Shown here: piece by piece, positions 11,330 through 22,801 of the stretch | How the letters are laid out: the number at the start of each line of letters is the position of its first letter | Numbering within the stretch: the stretch's first letter is position 1 | NCBI GenBank assembly: GCA_936940865.1 | Contig: CAKZJB010000082.1 | Span: 1 to 64,000, forward strand | DNA: 64,000 nucleotides | From: an uncultured Asticcacaulis sp. | Lineage (GTDB): Bacteria > Pseudomonadota > Alphaproteobacteria > Caulobacterales > Caulobacteraceae | Reading direction: 5' to 3' | Program-made: the position numbers and the translations under genes | Notes under the pieces: generated by a model | Databases searched by the model: none | What the model was told of the DNA's origin: nothing | The model's input: the letters and a program-made list of their open reading frames with translations, nothing else

Positions 11330-11554
11330 TATACGAAGGTATATCGGCGCGGTTCGTCCTTGACTTGGTTATACCGCGGCCTCTAAGGGGCGATTGTCGG
11401 GGGCGCACAACGCCACCTGACACTTTCAAGGAACTCCAAACCCTCATGTCCGGCGACAGTAGTCGATCACGTCAGCCGCAACGGGCACGACAGTAGGCCT
11501 TCCACCGCTGGCTTACCTGTCGCCCCCGAACCGGCGTCAACGTCAAGGTAAGCC
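11330..11554 (+). promoter_or_regulatory. Operator/promoter and structured 5' leader of the ABC transporter operon
   Basis: TATAC-GAAG-GTATA (11330-11343), TTGACT (11360-11365), CTCTAAGGGG (11381-11390); TGGCTTACCT (11509-11518) complements AGGTAAGCCA (11546-11555) at the SD/start; related to 19684-19850. Confidence 0.55.
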
Positions 11555-13309
11555 ATGGTCTTCTTTCTCGAGGATGCCAAGGGTGCGCGCCCGCTTGCGC
11601 GTTTCCTGCCCGGAAACATCCGGTTCGCGTGGGCGGATGTCGCCGCGTTCATCCTGCTCGCCGGTGTCTCGGTGCTCGTCTTTCACGGTGCGGAACAGAT
11701 GGGGCTGCCGCTGTCCCAACTGCAGACATCCCCGATCAGTCTCGATCCCGTCCATCTGCCGGAATACGCCCTTCGCACGACGTTGCGGATGTTCGCGGCC
11801 CTTGGCGCCTCGCTGATGTTTACATTTGTCGTGGCGACGCTGGCAGCGCGCAGCCGCAAGGCAGAGATGATCATCGTGCCGGCGCTCGACATCCTGCAAT
11901 CGGTGCCGGTCCTGGGGTTTCTGACCTTTACCGTGACCATGTTCATGGGGCTGTTTCCAGGCAGCCAGTTGGGCGCCGAATGCGCGGCCATATTCGCCAT
12001 CTTCACCGCCCAGGCCTGGAACATGGCCTTCAGCTTCTATCAAAGCCTGAAGACGCTCCCCAGCGATCTTGACGAGGTCACCCGCAATTTCGGCTTTTCG
12101 CCCTGGCGCCGCTTTATCCGACTTGAACTGCCGTTTGCTACACCGAGCCTGGTGTGGAACATGATGATGTCGATGTCGGGCGGCTGGTTCTTCGTCGTCG
12201 CGTCCGAAGCCATCACCGTCGGCCACACGTCGATCGCCTTGCCAGGCATCGGCTCATGGCTGGCGCTCGCGATCCAGCATCAGGACATGGGTGCCGTGAC
12301 CTGGGGCGTCACTGCCATGGCCATCGTCATCCTGCTCTACGATCAGTTCTTCTTCCGCCCGGTCATCGCCTGGGCCGACAAGTTCCGTTTTGAGCAAACC
12401 GCCTCGCAGGAAACACCGAAGTCGTGGCTGTATGACCTCATTCACCGCACGCGCTTCCTGCGCCGGGCGTTCAGCCTCCTGACCGTACCCGTAAAGAAGC
12501 TGGCCGCTATCAAATGGTCGAAGCTGCCGCCGGCGCCGGAGGTGCGCATTCCGGCAGAAGCCAATCGCGCCATCGACATCCTGTGGATCGTGCTGGTGGT
12601 TGCCGCCTGCGCCTTCAGTGTGTGGGAACTGGTCCACTACATTGCGAGGAGCCTGACCTGGGGTGACCTCCGCGCGGTCGCCGCCATGGGCCTGGCCACC
12701 CTGGTCCGCGTGGCGATCCTGATCGCCCTGGCCAGCGTGATCTGGGTGCCGATAGGCGTATGGATCGGATTGCGCCCGGCCTGGGCCGAGCGGCTGCAAC
12801 CGGTCGCCCAGTTCCTGGCCGCCTTTCCGGCCAATGTCCTGTTTCCCGTGGTCGCCATGATCATCGTCGGGCTGAGGCTCGATCCGAACATCTGGCTGTC
12901 GCCGCTGATGATCCTCGGCACCCAGTGGTACATCCTGTTCAATGTCATCGCCGGAGCCAGCGCCATTCCGGGCGACATGAAGGAAGTGTCGCGCATGTTC
13001 GGTCTGAAGGGCTGGCAGTGGTGGCGCCAGGTCGCGCTGCCGGCGGTCTTTCCTTATTATGTCACCGGCGCTCTGACGGCATCCGGCGGCTCGTGGAACG
13101 CCTCGATCGTCGCGGAGGCCGTCGATTGGGGCCGGACGCACCTGGAGGCTTTCGGGCTCGGCGCCTACATCGCCCGCGCCACGGCGGCCGGCAATTATCC
13201 CCGCGTCGCACTCGGCATCGCCGTCATGAGCATCTTCGTCATCGGTTTCAACCGCACGGTCTGGCGGCCGCTCTACGGCTATGCCGAACGCCGCCTGCGC
13301 ATCAATTAA
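11555..13309 (+). CDS. ABC transporter permease with two fused permease domains
   Basis: 584 aa; two copies of BPD-type permease region (FGFSPWRRFIRLELPFATPSLVWN; FGLKGWQWWRQVALPAVFPYYVTGALTASGGSWNASIVAE). Confidence 0.88.
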   Translation: MVFFLEDAKGARPLARFLPGNIRFAWADVAAFILLAGVSVLVFHGAEQMGLPLSQLQTSPISLDPVHLPEYALRTTLRMFAALGASLMFTFVVATLAARSRKAEMIIVPALDILQSVPVLGFLTFTVTMFMGLFPGSQLGAECAAIFAIFTAQAWNMAFSFYQSLKTLPSDLDEVTRNFGFSPWRRFIRLELPFATPSLVWNMMMSMSGGWFFVVASEAITVGHTSIALPGIGSWLALAIQHQDMGAVTWGVTAMAIVILLYDQFFFRPVIAWADKFRFEQTASQETPKSWLYDLIHRTRFLRRAFSLLTVPVKKLAAIKWSKLPPAPEVRIPAEANRAIDILWIVLVVAACAFSVWELVHYIARSLTWGDLRAVAAMGLATLVRVAILIALASVIWVPIGVWIGLRPAWAERLQPVAQFLAAFPANVLFPVVAMIIVGLRLDPNIWLSPLMILGTQWYILFNVIAGASAIPGDMKEVSRMFGLKGWQWWRQVALPAVFPYYVTGALTASGGSWNASIVAEAVDWGRTHLEAFGLGAYIARATAAGNYPRVALGIAVMSIFVIGFNRTVWRPLYGYAERRLRIN

Positions 13310-13321
13310 GGGAGACAGACC

Positions 13322-14629
13322 ATGCCCCTCGATCTCCAACCCCGCACACTGTGCGATGTCCGCAAGGTCCGTCACGTCTATGGCAAGTCCGGCGGCAAGG
13401 ACCTGCTGGTGCTCGACGATGTCAATCTGACGCTCAAGGAAAACGAGATCGTCGGCCTGCTGGGGCGCTCGGGCTCCGGCAAGTCGACCCTGCTGCGCTC
13501 GATCGCCGGCCTGATCAAGCCGACCGAGGGCATGGTTGGTTTTCCGCATCCGATCGGCGAGAAATCGGCGACCGTCTCCATGGTCTTCCAGACCTTTGCT
13601 CTCTTTCCCTGGCTGACCGTTCTGGAAAATGTCGAGGTCGGTCTGGAAGCACAAAGGGTCGATAAGGAAACCCGGCGCAAGAAAGCCCTGGCGGCCATCG
13701 ACCTGATCGGCCTTGACGGCTTCGAAAATGCTTATCCCAAGGAGTTGTCGGGCGGCATGCGGCAGCGCGTCGGCCTGGCGCGTGCCCTGGTGGTCGATCC
13801 GTCGATTCTGCTGATGGACGAGCCGTTTTCCGCGCTCGACGTGTTGACCGCCGAGACCCTGCGGACCGACCTGCTCGACCTGTGGTACGAAGGCCGGATG
13901 CCGATCAAGTCTATCCTGATCGTCACCCACAATATCGAGGAAGCGGTTCTGCTTTGCGACCGCATCCTGGTCTTTTCATCAAATCCGGGCCGCATCGTCG
14001 CGGAAATCAAGGTCGACATGCCGCAGCCGCGCAACCGCCAGGCGCCGGCCTTCCGGGCGATGGTCGACGACATCTATCGGCGCATGACGCAGAAGAAGGC
14101 GGGGGACCAGCCGAAAGACGGCTTGTTCCCGGGGATGGGCATCGGCATGGCCCTGCCGCAGGTTTCCACCAATACGCTGGCCGGCCTTATGGAGGCCGTC
14201 GCGGCCCCTCCCTATGAGGGCACCGCCGATCTGGCGGCGCTGGCGCACGAGACACAGTACGAAGCCGACGAGCTCTTCCCGGTCGCCGAAGTGCTGCAAC
14301 TGTTCCGTTTTGCCGAGTTGGAAGGCGGGCAACTGACGCTGACTCCGGAGGCGCGTCGCTTTGTCGACGCCGACGTGGATGGCCGCAAGCGCCTGTTTGC
14401 CCAGCATTTCCTGAACTATGTGCCCCTCGCGGCCCATATCCGCCGCGTGCTCGACGACCGGCCCGGCAAGGTCGCGCCCGCCAGACGCTTCCGGGATGAG
14501 ATCGAGGACCTGATGTCCGAGGACTACGCGGAGCAGACACTGAAGACGATCATCCAGTGGGGCCGGTATGCGGAAGTCTTTGCCTTTGACGAGGCGGCCG
14601 ACCAGTTCAGTCTGGAAAACCCGGAATAG
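13322..14629 (+). CDS. ABC transporter ATP-binding protein with C-terminal AAA-associated-type domain
   Basis: Walker A GRSGSGKST, signature LSGGMRQRVGLARAL, Walker B ILLMDEPFSALD, plus about 180 aa C-terminal extension. Confidence 0.88.
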   Translation: MPLDLQPRTLCDVRKVRHVYGKSGGKDLLVLDDVNLTLKENEIVGLLGRSGSGKSTLLRSIAGLIKPTEGMVGFPHPIGEKSATVSMVFQTFALFPWLTVLENVEVGLEAQRVDKETRRKKALAAIDLIGLDGFENAYPKELSGGMRQRVGLARALVVDPSILLMDEPFSALDVLTAETLRTDLLDLWYEGRMPIKSILIVTHNIEEAVLLCDRILVFSSNPGRIVAEIKVDMPQPRNRQAPAFRAMVDDIYRRMTQKKAGDQPKDGLFPGMGIGMALPQVSTNTLAGLMEAVAAPPYEGTADLAALAHETQYEADELFPVAEVLQLFRFAELEGGQLTLTPEARRFVDADVDGRKRLFAQHFLNYVPLAAHIRRVLDDRPGKVAPARRFRDEIEDLMSEDYAEQTLKTIIQWGRYAEVFAFDEAADQFSLENPE

Positions 14630-14733
14630 CCCGTCCGGTTCCACGCCATTCAACTGTAAAACTCGGACGATGAACCCTCCTGCACCTGGATAGGGCAAGG
14701 ATGAGGCGCGTCATATCAGAGCCGGAGGCTGCC

Positions 14734-15882
14734 ATGGATGTTCACCCTGCCATCGCCCATCGCGTAATTACCGGAGTCGCTCTGGTAATGTCTGGCGGCT
14801 TTGCCATCACTGGCGACGCGAGGGCTGACGACGGCATTTTTTCGGTTACTCCCGCCCTCACGATAGACGTGCTCGACAATATGTCGGGCGGGCGCCGGAC
14901 GGGGGCAAGGACGATGTACAACCTCGACCTGACCGCCTCCTGGAAGGGGGAAAGAGGTTGGGAGGCGTGGGGCTATGTCCTGGTCGATGGCAATGGTGGG
15001 TTTTCCAATCGGTACAGTGGTGATCTGCAAACCTTGTCCAACATCGACGCCGTTCCGGCAACGCGGTTGTTCGAGGCATGGGCACGATATACGTCAGCCG
15101 ATACCCGGTGGCGAACGACGCTCGGCGTCATCAATCTGAACGCCGTCTTCGATACTCAACCTGTCGGTGGGGTGTTCCTGAATTCCTCGGACGGGATCGG
15201 TCCGGACTATTCGCAATCCGGGCCGCCCATCTTTCCAGTGACAGGGTTGGGCGCCGTCGCCGAATGGCGAATGACCTGGCGCACGACATTGCGCGCAAGC
15301 GTTTCCGATGGTGTTCCCGGAGATCCCGAACATCCCAAGGCGTTCGCGGCCTTGCACCTTCGCAAGGCCGAAGGATTGCATCGGGTTGTCGAGCTGGAGC
15401 ACCATTTCGACAACGGTTTCCTGAAGCTTGGTCATTGGGACTATACAGTCGCCGGCGAGCGCTGGAACGACAAAGGCCCGGGCATCAGACAGGGAAGCTA
15501 TGCGCAGTTTGGGTGGTACCTGATCAAAGAGGTCGCTGATGCCAGTCAGGGATTGCAGGGCTGGGTACGCGTAGGCAATGCCAACGGCGATGTGTTCAAA
15601 CTCGACCAGTATGTCGGCGGGGGGCTCGTCTACACCGGATTTTTTGCCGGACACGACAACGACCAGATGGGATTGGCCGTAATGCAGGCGCGCCTGGGCC
15701 AGCCCTATCGTGCCTTCGCGGGCGCGCCGCGCGCAACTGAGACTGCCGTCGAAATGACCTACAAAATGGTGGTCGGCGACCACGTCATCGTTCAGCCGGA
15801 CATGCAATATATCCGCAATCCCGGCGGCGAAGGCGCGTTGAAGGATGCGCTTGTCCTTGGCGTACGCCTGCGCGTCCAGTGA
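14734..15882 (+). CDS. OprB-like outer membrane porin
   Basis: Signal peptide, beta-barrel pattern, GWEAWGYVLVDGNGGFS..., FFAGHDNDQMGLAV typical of the OprB family. Confidence 0.7.
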   Translation: MDVHPAIAHRVITGVALVMSGGFAITGDARADDGIFSVTPALTIDVLDNMSGGRRTGARTMYNLDLTASWKGERGWEAWGYVLVDGNGGFSNRYSGDLQTLSNIDAVPATRLFEAWARYTSADTRWRTTLGVINLNAVFDTQPVGGVFLNSSDGIGPDYSQSGPPIFPVTGLGAVAEWRMTWRTTLRASVSDGVPGDPEHPKAFAALHLRKAEGLHRVVELEHHFDNGFLKLGHWDYTVAGERWNDKGPGIRQGSYAQFGWYLIKEVADASQGLQGWVRVGNANGDVFKLDQYVGGGLVYTGFFAGHDNDQMGLAVMQARLGQPYRAFAGAPRATETAVEMTYKMVVGDHVIVQPDMQYIRNPGGEGALKDALVLGVRLRVQ

Positions 15883-17355: not shown

Positions 17356-18324
17356 ATGACTGTAATTGCCGCTTTCCTTTACCGCAATGGCCAGCGTGTC
17401 CGTGAAATCGCTATCGACGAAACGGTCGAATGCCCCCAAGACAAATCCGAATTCGTATGGATCGGCATAGCCGACCCGACCGAAGCGGAAATGCAGACTC
17501 TGAAAGACACCTACGGCCTGCATCCTTTAGCCGTCGAGGATGCGCTCAAGGCGAGGCAATTGCCGAAAATCGATATTTACGGCGATCAGCTATTCGTCGT
17601 CGCCCGTACAGCCCGTCTCGAGGACGGCAAGATAGCGTACGGCCAGACGGCCATGTTCGTCGGACACAGCCATATCATCAGCGTCCGCCTTGGTTCGGCG
17701 CGCGGCCATACCGGACTCCGCCGGGAACTGGAGGCCAACCCCACGCAGTTGAGCCACGGGGTCGACTACGTCCTTCACGCCATTCTCGACTTCATCGTCG
17801 ATGGGTACCTGCCGATTGTTGAAAACATCGAGGAGGAGGTGCTGGAGATGGAGCAGCGCACGGTCGATAATTTCCTGGGCCGAAGCGAGATTACGCGTAT
17901 TTTTGGTCTCAGGCGCGAACTGATCCGCTTCCAACACGTCCTGGCTCCGATGAGCGAAGTCGCCAATAAACTGGTTCGTGCCGACCTGCCGGGGATCGAT
18001 GCGGAAGTGCGACCCTATTTCAACGACGTCCTCGATCACGTGCGGCGCGTGCAGGCCATGGTCGACGACCTGCGCGAAGTGCTGGCCTCGGTGTTTGAGT
18101 TCAGCAACCTGCTGGAACAGCAGCGAACGGGCGCCATCACCCGCCAGCTGGCGGCCTGGGCTGCCATCCTGGCAGTACCCACGGCGATAGCCGGCATCTA
18201 TGGCATGAATTTCGAGCATATGCCGGAACTGAAAACGACTTACGGCTACTTCGTCGTGCTGGCTGTGATCCTCGTGATCTGCGCCCTCCTGTACGTGCGA
18301 TTTAAGCGCCTGCGCTGGTTGTAG
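17356..18324 (+). CDS. corA: CorA family magnesium/divalent cation transporter
   Basis: 322 aa; C-terminal YGMNFEHMPEL (GMN motif) with two TM helices. Confidence 0.95.
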   Translation: MTVIAAFLYRNGQRVREIAIDETVECPQDKSEFVWIGIADPTEAEMQTLKDTYGLHPLAVEDALKARQLPKIDIYGDQLFVVARTARLEDGKIAYGQTAMFVGHSHIISVRLGSARGHTGLRRELEANPTQLSHGVDYVLHAILDFIVDGYLPIVENIEEEVLEMEQRTVDNFLGRSEITRIFGLRRELIRFQHVLAPMSEVANKLVRADLPGIDAEVRPYFNDVLDHVRRVQAMVDDLREVLASVFEFSNLLEQQRTGAITRQLAAWAAILAVPTAIAGIYGMNFEHMPELKTTYGYFVVLAVILVICALLYVRFKRLRWL

Positions 18325-19683: not shown

Positions 19684-20129
19684 TATACAAAGGTATAGAT
19701 GAGGGGGTTCATTCTTGACAGGCGTGTCGAGCGACCTCTAAGGGCGTTTGTCGGCGAGGTTTCTGAAGGTCAACCGACGTTTTCCGGGAAGCAAATCCCA
19801 AGTCCGACATGGTCACGGACAAGCAGGTGATCTCTAGTGGCTGGCCCAAGGGCATTGAGCGTTGGCACATTATTCGAGATCATGGACACGCCTCCGCGAG
19901 AGACTGGAGATGTCGGTATCCGGCAGCCTCCTTGGAGGTGCGAGGTTGGCGCTCCAGGTGGCCATCACGTTGTTCAATCTCCGGCTCCTTACGCCCAGGG
20001 GGGCGCGCTGCATTATTGGGCTGGCATTGAAGCTCAACAAAGTGTCGTCCCGCCTTGCGCTTCAACAAATCCGCCGCGTCGCCAGACGCATCCGGCGAGA
20101 CTGAGCTTCGTCAAAGTGCTGGAAATGCC
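19684..20129 (+). promoter_or_regulatory. Operator/promoter and long 5' leader of mgtC
   Basis: TATAC-AAAG-GTATA (19684-19697), TTGACA (19715-19720), CTCTAAGGGC from 19736; leader similar to that at 11381-11500. Confidence 0.55.
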
Positions 20130-20855
20130 ATGGCCCCTGCAAATTCCCTGATTGACTTCGAGTCTCCGGCCTTTCTGAAAACCCTGTTGGTTCTCACGAT
20201 AGCCTTCGTCTGCGGCGGCCTGATCGGCGTGGAGCGACAGATCCGGCAGCGAAACGCGGGTCTCAGGACCATGGTCCTTGTCTCGGTGGGGGCGGCCGCG
20301 TTCGTCCACCTTGGCGAGCGGTTGCTCGGCGGCGAGGGCCAGGTGCGCATCATCGCCTATGTCGTATCGGGAATTGGTTTTCTTGGCGCTGGCGTCATCA
20401 TGAAGGAGGGCGCCCAGGTGCGCGGCCTCAACACCGCCGCGACGCTCTGGACCTCCGCGGCCGTCGGGGCCTTCGCCGGTAGCGGCCTGTTTGCAGAGGC
20501 CGCTGCCGTCACCCTGTTCATTCTCGCCGGCAACACACTCCTGCGGCCGCTCGTGAACTACATAAACCGGCGCCCGGTTGATGCCGCGACGACGGAGGCG
20601 ACCTATCGTGTGCATGTCGTTTGCGCGGCGGAGCACATTACCGAAGCCCGCGACCTGCTGGACGCGGAATTGGAGAGGGCGAAATATCCGATCCGCGAGA
20701 TCGAGGTTCTGTCGGAAGGCGAAGACACCACGGAATTGGCGGCGGTCCTTATTCCAACAACCGCCGAAGCGTCGGAACTCGACGCCGTATGCGCGGCGCT
20801 TGTCGCGTCGGACGCCGTCGAAAGCGCGACCTGGACGGTGAGTACGACGCTCTGA
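20130..20855 (+). CDS. mgtC: MgtC/SapB family protein
   Basis: CGGLIGVERQIRQRNAGLRTMVLVSVGAAAF; GIGFLGAGVIMKEGAQVRGLNTAATLWTSAAVG. Confidence 0.92.
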   Translation: MAPANSLIDFESPAFLKTLLVLTIAFVCGGLIGVERQIRQRNAGLRTMVLVSVGAAAFVHLGERLLGGEGQVRIIAYVVSGIGFLGAGVIMKEGAQVRGLNTAATLWTSAAVGAFAGSGLFAEAAAVTLFILAGNTLLRPLVNYINRRPVDAATTEATYRVHVVCAAEHITEARDLLDAELERAKYPIREIEVLSEGEDTTELAAVLIPTTAEASELDAVCAALVASDAVESATWTVSTTL

Positions 20856-20860
20856 CCCTG

Positions 20861-21496
20861 TCAGGTCCGACGAAGGGTTTCCATCATCCTCACCAGGTCG
20901 GCAAAGCTGTCCGCCTGCATCTTTTTCATGATCTGGCCGCGGCGGACCTTTACGGTGATCTCGCTGATACCGAGTTCGCCGGCGACCTGCTTGTTCAACA
21001 GGCCGCTTACCAGGCCCGTAAGAATCTCCTTCTCGCGCGCGTCCAGGCTGGCATAGCGCTCCCGCAAGGCGGCGATGGTTGAGGCTTCGCGGCGATCTGA
21101 GCTGTCTTTTGCCAGGCCGGCGCGGACAGCATCGAGAAGATCCTGATCGCCGAAGGGCTTGATCAGGAACTCGATGGCGCCGGCTTTCATGGCCCGGACG
21201 GAGGTCTGAACATCGCCATGCGCCGTGATGAAGATGGTCGGCAGGGTCAGATCAAGGGCGATCAACTGGCGCTGCAGGTCCAGCCCTGTCATGCCCGGCA
21301 TCCGGACATCGAGTACCAGGCAGGACGGGACATCCGGGCGGGTCGATTGCAGGAAATCCTGGGCGGAGGAAAAAAGCCGGGCCTCCAGCCCGGCCGCCCC
21401 GAGAAGATCGGCAAGTGCCTCGCCGACAGACGCGTCATCGTCGACGATATATACGATGCCGGCGTCCTGTACGACCTCCGATGGATTCGAGTTCAT
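20861..21496 (-). CDS. response regulator, FixJ/NarL type (REC + LuxR-type HTH)
   Basis: VYIVDDDASVGEAL, LVLDVRMPGMTGLDLQ, HTH LVSGLLNKQVAGELGISEITVKVRRGQIMKKM. Confidence 0.92.
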   Translation of the reverse strand: MNSNPSEVVQDAGIVYIVDDDASVGEALADLLGAAGLEARLFSSAQDFLQSTRPDVPSCLVLDVRMPGMTGLDLQRQLIALDLTLPTIFITAHGDVQTSVRAMKAGAIEFLIKPFGDQDLLDAVRAGLAKDSSDRREASTIAALRERYASLDAREKEILTGLVSGLLNKQVAGELGISEITVKVRRGQIMKKMQADSFADLVRMMETLRRT

Positions 21497-22563
21497 GCTG
21501 CTGACGAGTCCTTCGTGGGAAGGCTGAAATAGAAACACGCGCCGCGAGGATCGTTCGGGTGGGCCCAGATCTGCCCGCCATGGGCTTCGACGATCGATCG
21601 GGTGATGGTCAAGCCCATGCCTATGCCAGCCGCCTTGGTGGTGAAGAACGGATCGAACATCTGGTCCAGCATCTCGGGCCGGACGCCTGAACCATTGTCT
21701 TTGACGGAAACGACAATCTCATCGTGAGTGCCGGCACGTGCTCGAATCTCGACGTTCCGCCTCTGGGCTGACTCCGTCTTCAGGGCCTCGGTCGCATTGA
21801 GAATGAGATTGCTGAGAACCTGCTGAAGCTGCACCCTGTCCGCCATCACGTCCGGGAGATTGGCATCGATGTCGATGTCCACCTCGACGGCGTTGCGCCT
21901 TAGGTCTGCCTGGGCCAGGTCCAGGGTGTCCGCGACGACGTCTTGCAGGTTGACGCGTTCCTTTATCGAAACACCGCCCCTGGCCAGCGTCCGGACGCGT
22001 GCTATGACGTCGCTGGCGCGCTTGGCATCGGCAACGATCCGATCGAGGTTTCGCCTGACCTTGTCGAGATCGGCTGGCTCCTGTTCCAGCCAGCGCAATC
22101 CGGCGTGACCGCTTGTCACAATGGCCGTGAGCGGCTGGTTGATCTCATGGGCGATGGAGGTAGTCAGCGCGCCAAGACTGGTTATGCGGGCGATGCGCGT
22201 CAATTGTACCCTGGCATTATTCGCTGCGGCCTCGGCGACTAATATTCTTATGGCAAGAAACGTTGTGATCCCGATAGCCGCTATGCTGATCCCCGCATTG
22301 ATCAGGCCGACATTCCAGTTGCCTCTCGGCGTCATGGCAAGGCTGAGTAGTGTAAGTCCGACACACAAGCCGGCCATGATTATGACGCCGCGGGTGGACA
22401 AGAGGCCGACGGCCAGCAGAATGGCCACCAGGTAAAACACGGCGCCGGCAATTTCATAGTTCGTGACGGTATCGAATACGAAAATGCACGGTACGAGTAC
22501 CCAGGCCAATCCAAGGCGAAAGCGCCTCGCGGACCGCCCGCCCAGCCTTGTGATCCTGTCCAT
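21493..22563 (-). CDS. membrane sensor histidine kinase
   Basis: N-terminal TM helices; H-box [26 protein letters not shown] boxes [34 protein letters not shown]. Confidence 0.92.
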
Positions 22564-22801
22564 TTGAATAAACCTCGGTGGATTTCGAGGCACGCAAAGT
22601 CGGCGCCAGCTACGAGTTCCAATAGGCGTTGAGGACCATAGCGTCCAGCGCTTCGAGGCTCTGCACTGGTAATTGCACCCGGCCTCAGGGATCAGCCCCC
22701 GCTTTCAAAAGGCGCGATATGGCCGCCAAGCTCGTCTTTTAGAGATTCGATCTAAACGCAGTAGAACAACCGCACCAATCTATCACCATAATTTGCGGAT
22801 T

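Follow-up and report, generated by a model that had tools for sequence, protein, structure and literature searches.

The window, a stretch of 64,000 nucleotides from an uncultured Asticcacaulis sp., carries mgtC behind a probable small-protein gene, an ABC permease with its ATPase and an OprB-family porin, a corA gene and, on the opposite strand, genes for a response regulator and a histidine kinase (Table 1). The MgtC Pfam domain scored 124 bits against a gathering score of 31.4. The regulator matched the NCBIfam FixJ model (PRK09390) at 203.8 bits, below the cut-off of 255, and the TtrR model likewise below its cut-off, so that its architecture is FixJ-like without making it FixJ. No substrate-binding protein was noticed alongside the ABC permease and ATPase (11555–14629).

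Table 1. Features of the mgtC and ABC transporter units and of the neighbouring regulatory genes, in window coordinates.
Feature	Position	Strand	Remarks
Operator TATACGAAGGTATA of the ABC transporter promoter	11330..11343	+	
ABC promoter	11360..11388	+	-35 TTGACT, 17-bp spacer, -10 CTAAGG; aligns with 19715-19743
Leader-peptide ORF MSGDSSRSRQPQRARQ	11446..11496	+	MPSDSSRSNAP..R in relatives, with ribosome-binding site
Hairpin GGCUUACC...GGUAAGCC	11510..11554	+	Covers permease ribosome-binding site
Duplicated ABC permease, NitT/TauT type	11555..13309	+	Pfam BPD_transp_1, 2 stretches
ABC ATPase with C-terminal AAA_assoc_C domain	13322..14629	+	Pfam ABC_tran and PF09821
OprB-family porin	14701..15882	+	Pfam PF04966
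CorA Mg2+/Co2+ transporter, module member	17356..18324	+	NCBIfam TIGR00383 above cut-off
Operator TATACAAAGGTATA, palindrome TATAC-N4-GTATA	19684..19697	+	Centre at about -60 from predicted mgtC start site
mgtC-side promoter	19715..19743	+	-35 TTGACA at 19715-19720, 17-bp spacer, weak -10 CTAAGG at 19738-19743
5' untranslated region, small-ORF-mgtC transcript	19750..19909	+	About 160 nt; start site deduced from -10; search for conserved structure negative
Probable small-protein gene, 64 aa	19910..20104	+	Amphipathic, Arg-rich C terminus; probably cotranscribed with mgtC
mgtC, MgtC/SapB family	20130..20855	+	Pfam PF02308 5.5e-36, PF21770 2.8e-11
FixJ/LuxR-type response regulator	20861..21538	-	Pfam Response_reg and GerE; candidate activator at palindromes
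Membrane histidine kinase, regulator's partner	21493..22593	-	Pfam HisKA and HATPase_c

An earlier note on this DNA had proposed that a second leader module, related to the leader of the ABC permease, lies upstream of mgtC. The strings on which the comparison rested (CTCTAAGGG...TTGTCGG) are present as quoted, at 19736–19754 and 11381–11400. The -10 box of both promoters is CTCTAAGG; CTCTAAGGG corresponds to this box plus its edge, and GTCGG lies approximately at the predicted transcription start. Both regions share the layout TATAC-NAAG-GTATA, 16–17 bp, TTGAC, a 17-bp spacer and CTAAGG. Local alignment of the operator, -35 and -10 segments gave a score of 21 against 7.7 ± 1.5 for shuffled sequences, with 0 of 1000 shuffles as high. 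The significant similarity starts at the palindrome, which is the exact first base of the interval that had been singled out. Because this similarity spans the operator, the -35 and the -10, most of the headline match is promoter DNA. The resemblance of the two regions is thus real and lies mainly in their promoters, but a second copy of the leader RNA is not supported, the core of that leader being matched only at chance level.

The palindrome is rare. Its form TATACNAAGGTATA is found exactly at two sites in the 5.07-Mb genome, 11330 and 19684, and exact TATAC-N4-GTATA occurs four times, both mgtC and ABC promoter sites included. The remaining two exact palindromes (C4 and C200) differ in their centres and have no visible tie to the module. 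TTGACA-N17 promoters with the same spacing as in the window also precede the ABC loci of relatives. Relatives of the same genus without the kinase–regulator pair have a TTGACA-type promoter, and there the palindrome is absent. The operator immediately on the mgtC side was seen in this genome only; elsewhere mgtC lies downstream of such a site only within longer clusters (L110, L097 and L095). Comparison of the loci establishes the operator–promoter arrangement and argues that 19684–19754 is probably promoter DNA under regulator control, with weak -10 boxes at both units.

The comparison sample consisted of 80 named ABC permease loci from public genomes. Homologs of the kinase–regulator pair (20861–22593 in the window) were found near the permease in 19 of the 80. 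Among the pair-bearing loci, 15 of 19 had the palindrome 5' of the permease, against none of the 61 without the pair (Fisher P = 6e-13), the loci coming from related species and therefore amounting to fewer than 80 independent observations. Three of the other four pair-bearing loci have versions of the palindrome with 1–2 mismatches. Across 2.0 Mb of permease loci, 18 of 20 palindromes lay ahead of the permease gene or, in the case of the window, ahead of mgtC. Palindrome and pair occur together in Sphingomonas, Aureimonas, Pseudomonas, Rhizobium and Caulobacteraceae, thus in several orders, and the gene orders vary. Linkage is insufficient to explain the association, because the pair sits upstream, downstream or divergent. 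Furthermore, the DNA-binding helix of the regulator (SEITVKV) is near-identical across the palindrome-bearing loci. These findings suggest that the regulator binds at the palindromes. Two imperfect copies of the operator are also located 5' of the histidine kinase gene in L095 (about 2460–2490), which suggests autoregulation of the kinase in that locus; operator copies were looked for upstream of the window's own kinase and none was found.

The likeness of the two promoters may have arisen by duplication. A block of operator, promoter and leader from the ABC unit would have been copied onto the small ORF and mgtC in this lineage, after which the promoter was kept by selection and the peptide and hairpin decayed. 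The best alignment runs continuously for about 180 nt from the palindromes at 11330 and 19684 (score 40 against 12.3 ± 1.9), and what similarity there is points to the window's own ABC leader and not to the core that the family conserves. Over roughly 40 nt beyond the start site some similarity remains (P ~ 0.01), possibly as remnants of a duplicated leader. Past the promoter, however, the signal is weak. The segment after GTCGG, which is certainly RNA, gave P = 0.008–0.035, according to the scoring used, and windows elsewhere on the contig with no relation to it scored equally high or higher. Convergence of two regulated promoters would be the alternative. Duplication is compatible with joint control of the two units by the regulator, and we regard it as a possible history rather than the expected one.

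The RNA ahead of the ABC permease has a layout of its own. Twenty-five homologs of its leader-peptide ORF were aligned, from Caulobacteraceae, Sphingomonas and others. One-codon insertions among them preserve the frame, most substitutions in codon 2 are synonymous, all 25 keep the CGA arginine codon and a GAC codon is conserved as well. The peptide MPSDSSRSNAP..R with its invariant CGA, found in the window and in L095–L147, is possibly a ribosome-pausing peptide. Downstream of the ORF, all 17 leaders that were folded one by one had most of the permease ribosome-binding site paired. The arms of this hairpin vary among leaders (GGCUUACC/GGUAAGCC, GGCUCGCC/GGUGAGCC and others), and in the window the helix was stronger than in all but 1 of 1000 shuffles. 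A competing hairpin directly after the leader stop codon can form in several ABC leaders. RNAalifold did not recover the hairpin from the alignment of ABC leaders, because the spacing differs among them. A class-wide pattern search for the leader peptide returned two matches only, its sample being too widely spread. A match from a family-wide pattern search, in G136 (L056), lay inside an unrelated coding sequence and was set aside as chance. The peptide and hairpin are thus recurrent on comparison, and from them we infer that the ABC leader is a translated leader-peptide attenuator; a translated peptide explains it better than an aptamer does.

Upstream of mgtC, the interval described in the earlier note as a leader of about 390 nt is indeed long, but it holds the probable 64-codon gene. 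Because 19910–20104 is probably coding, the true untranslated mgtC leader would measure about 160 nt and not 390. In L080 and L096 (with overlap of the two genes) a similar small protein is encoded immediately 5' of mgtC, and in L118 and L151 one adjoins the kinase. A profile built from these four and the window's protein added L144 (1e-5), L128 (3e-4) and L121 (0.02), each again next to the kinase. Because location partly guided the choice of the five seeds, only the three later members count as independent evidence. The small ORF matched nothing in Pfam or NCBIfam, and a search seeded with the window's ORF alone gave nothing convincing. Comparison of these loci nevertheless points to what is probably an undescribed family of small, amphipathic, Arg-rich proteins encoded beside mgtC or the kinase, with members in the window and in all the loci named.

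The leader of Salmonella mgtCBR contains two short ORFs, mgtM and mgtP (PMC3641672), and the mgtC leader studied here could be an attenuator in its own right of that kind, with a sensing ORF at 19809 or 19910. The interval is long and has overlapping short ORFs, and a helix can cover the start region at 19910. Such a helix over the small-ORF start, a switch-like rival to a GTCGG–CCGAC hairpin, proved to be at chance level (127 of 1000 shuffles). Attenuators of the Salmonella type combine short ORFs that sense ATP or proline with transcription attenuation; in the interval studied here neither a Pro-rich nor an MPSDSSR-like peptide was found, the ORF at 19809 has no nearby ribosome-binding site, and the family of the 19910 ORF adjoins the kinase in other genomes, for which a functional protein is the better fit. 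We consider this reading unlikely.

Least probable of all, and by a wide measure improbable, is that the ABC leader RNA has a second, structurally conserved copy in the mgtC leader, with one small ligand or ion binding both RNAs to control both genes. Ordered weak similarity does continue past the -10 (score 21 against 10.3, P ~ 0.001, the part between -10 and start included), and with the small ORF taken into account the two leaders differ little in length. Beginning with the conserved ABC core, however, the similarity falls to chance level. The further correspondences listed in the earlier note (CAAATCCC, the GTCCG stem and AGCAGGTGATC) gave P = 0.4–0.9, and in sequence alignment this downstream part was no better than its shuffled counterparts. 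The proposed GTCGG...CCGAC hairpin had a pairing probability of 0.002 in the predicted ensemble. The GTCCG...CGGAC stem is predicted to form (0.76–0.99 per pair), but its supposed ABC partner TGTC-CGGC-GACA is not kept, the orthologs reading TGCC. Compensatory change had been suggested for these stems; with only two sequences compared, it is not demonstrable.

Comparisons with further sequences gave the same picture. Of 16 further ABC leaders, none was matched by the mgtC leader (z -0.5 to 2.1), whereas the window's own ABC leader scored z 4–23 with them. Because only the latter matches the family, mgtC appears to be without a second functional leader copy. The mgtC side lacks the conserved ABC core, made up of the MPSDSSRS peptide and the hairpin that covers the ribosome-binding site, and 19750–19909 contains no ORF for an M-P/S-x-D-S..SR peptide. 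The predicted fold of the mgtC leader was no better than that of dinucleotide shuffles (z +0.49 over 179 nt, +0.03 over 399 nt). No part of the window matched Rfam 15 at the gathering threshold, and neither leader had a match at E <= 1. A genome search for CTCTAAGGG-N4-TTGTCGG with 3 mismatches allowed returned the ABC copy as the only exact match and others at control level. The element was absent upstream of the mgtC orthologs inspected, at 43–73% identity, the closer ones at 61–73% included.

The genes themselves form a recurring module on comparison. In L095, kinase, regulator, ABC permease, ATPase, OprB, MgtC and CorA are encoded in a single cluster; in the window the same set is dispersed over 11 kb, with the ABC operon 8 kb from mgtC. 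CorA is clustered with mgtC or the ABC genes in L095, L096, L101 and L092, and other loci group ABC–MgtC–CorA, ABC–MgtC, CorA–MgtC or MgtC–kinase–regulator. MgtA, a P-type Mg2+ ATPase, is preceded in L097 (4044–7358) and L098 by the leader peptide, a hairpin that covers a ribosome-binding site, and a short ORF, with MgtC, kinase and regulator downstream. The L097 MgtA scored 1378 bits with TIGR01524 (cut-off 611), the L098 copy is 89% identical, and the palindrome upstream of MgtA is exact in L097 and has 2 mismatches in L098. The link to Mg2+ genes drawn in the earlier note was therefore a good guess, since the leader peptide precedes this Mg2+ ATPase in two relatives. The best evidence for the signal is that leader peptide and operator precede MgtA, which makes limitation for Mg2+ or another divalent cation the probable signal. 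Because it co-occurs with Mg2+ genes, the ABC transporter is a candidate cation transporter. The literature searched contained no description of the combination of this regulator with the ABC transporter and mgtC.

These findings make it likely, in our judgement, that a two-component regulator co-activates the ABC unit and the small-protein–mgtC unit through a DNA operator under presumed Mg2+ limitation, with an additional RNA layer at the ABC unit only, rather than that a riboswitch has been copied. The membrane kinase would phosphorylate the neighbouring FixJ-like response regulator, which would then bind TATAC-N4-GTATA, whose centre lies some 60 bp ahead of the start site. Bound there, the regulator would activate two units with weak -10 boxes, the ABC permease–ATPase(–OprB) operon and small-protein–mgtC. 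Limitation for Mg2+ (or a divalent cation) is the signal suggested by the gene set of ABC, OprB, MgtC, CorA and, in relatives, MgtA. At the ABC unit, translation of the leader peptide would decide whether the hairpin hides the ribosome-binding site of the permease; the mgtC unit would work without the conserved parts of this layer. Of the earlier proposal that one ligand controls both genes, co-regulation of the two transcription units is well supported, but a common RNA ligand is not. Because the repeated motif is promoter DNA, mgtC would be the wrong place to look for an RNA ligand, and the interest of the site lies in the module rather than in the claimed leader copy.

More tentatively, the module may be an undescribed Mg2+-limitation system, in which the FixJ-like pair and the MPSDSSRS attenuator control an ABC importer of Mg2+ or another divalent cation, apparently lacking a substrate-binding protein of its own, along with MgtC, CorA or MgtA, and small amphipathic proteins of a new family, which would adjust either the transporter or the kinase. 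If this is true, many alphaproteobacteria and some gammaproteobacteria would meet Mg2+ shortage by means of a regulator that is not related to PhoP. That response would include an unexpected ABC transporter, with the leader peptide sitting on MgtA too. An uncharacterised transporter family would gain a testable substrate and an unassigned two-component system a binding motif, and the leader would represent a new peptide-controlled translational switch.

Several known systems resemble parts of this arrangement. Like PhoP/PhoQ of Salmonella, the window appears to combine two-component promoter control of mgtC and Mg2+ transporters with short leader ORFs and Mg2+ limitation as the presumed signal; in the PhoP/PhoQ-controlled mgtA system the leader ORF is mgtL. 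Unlike PhoP, the regulator of the window is of the FixJ/LuxR type and not the OmpR type, with the putative operator TATAC-N4-GTATA, and the leader consists of the peptide MPSDSSRS... and a hairpin covering the ribosome-binding site, the apparent main target being an ABC transporter. FixJ- and TtrR-type regulators have in common with the window a receiver and a LuxR-type DNA-binding domain, a partner histidine kinase and a palindromic operator 5' of the -35, but here the partner genes concern cation transport instead of nitrogen fixation or tetrathionate.

In erm-type translational attenuators, a hairpin downstream of a short translated ORF covers the ribosome-binding site of the next gene. The ABC leader has the same elements, a predicted translated ORF, a hairpin covering the ribosome-binding site and a competing 5' hairpin, whereas the mgtC leader is without this layout of peptide and hairpin. 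To our knowledge, the sequence of the ABC leader peptide is unrelated to those of known attenuator peptides. Other conserved short ORFs, with products MDSYPSR... and MDSPSSRS..., lie upstream of the ABC permease in Rhizobium (L118, L123, L128 and L132) and Azospirillum (L160, L162 and L169), and these are possibly diverged versions of the leader peptide.
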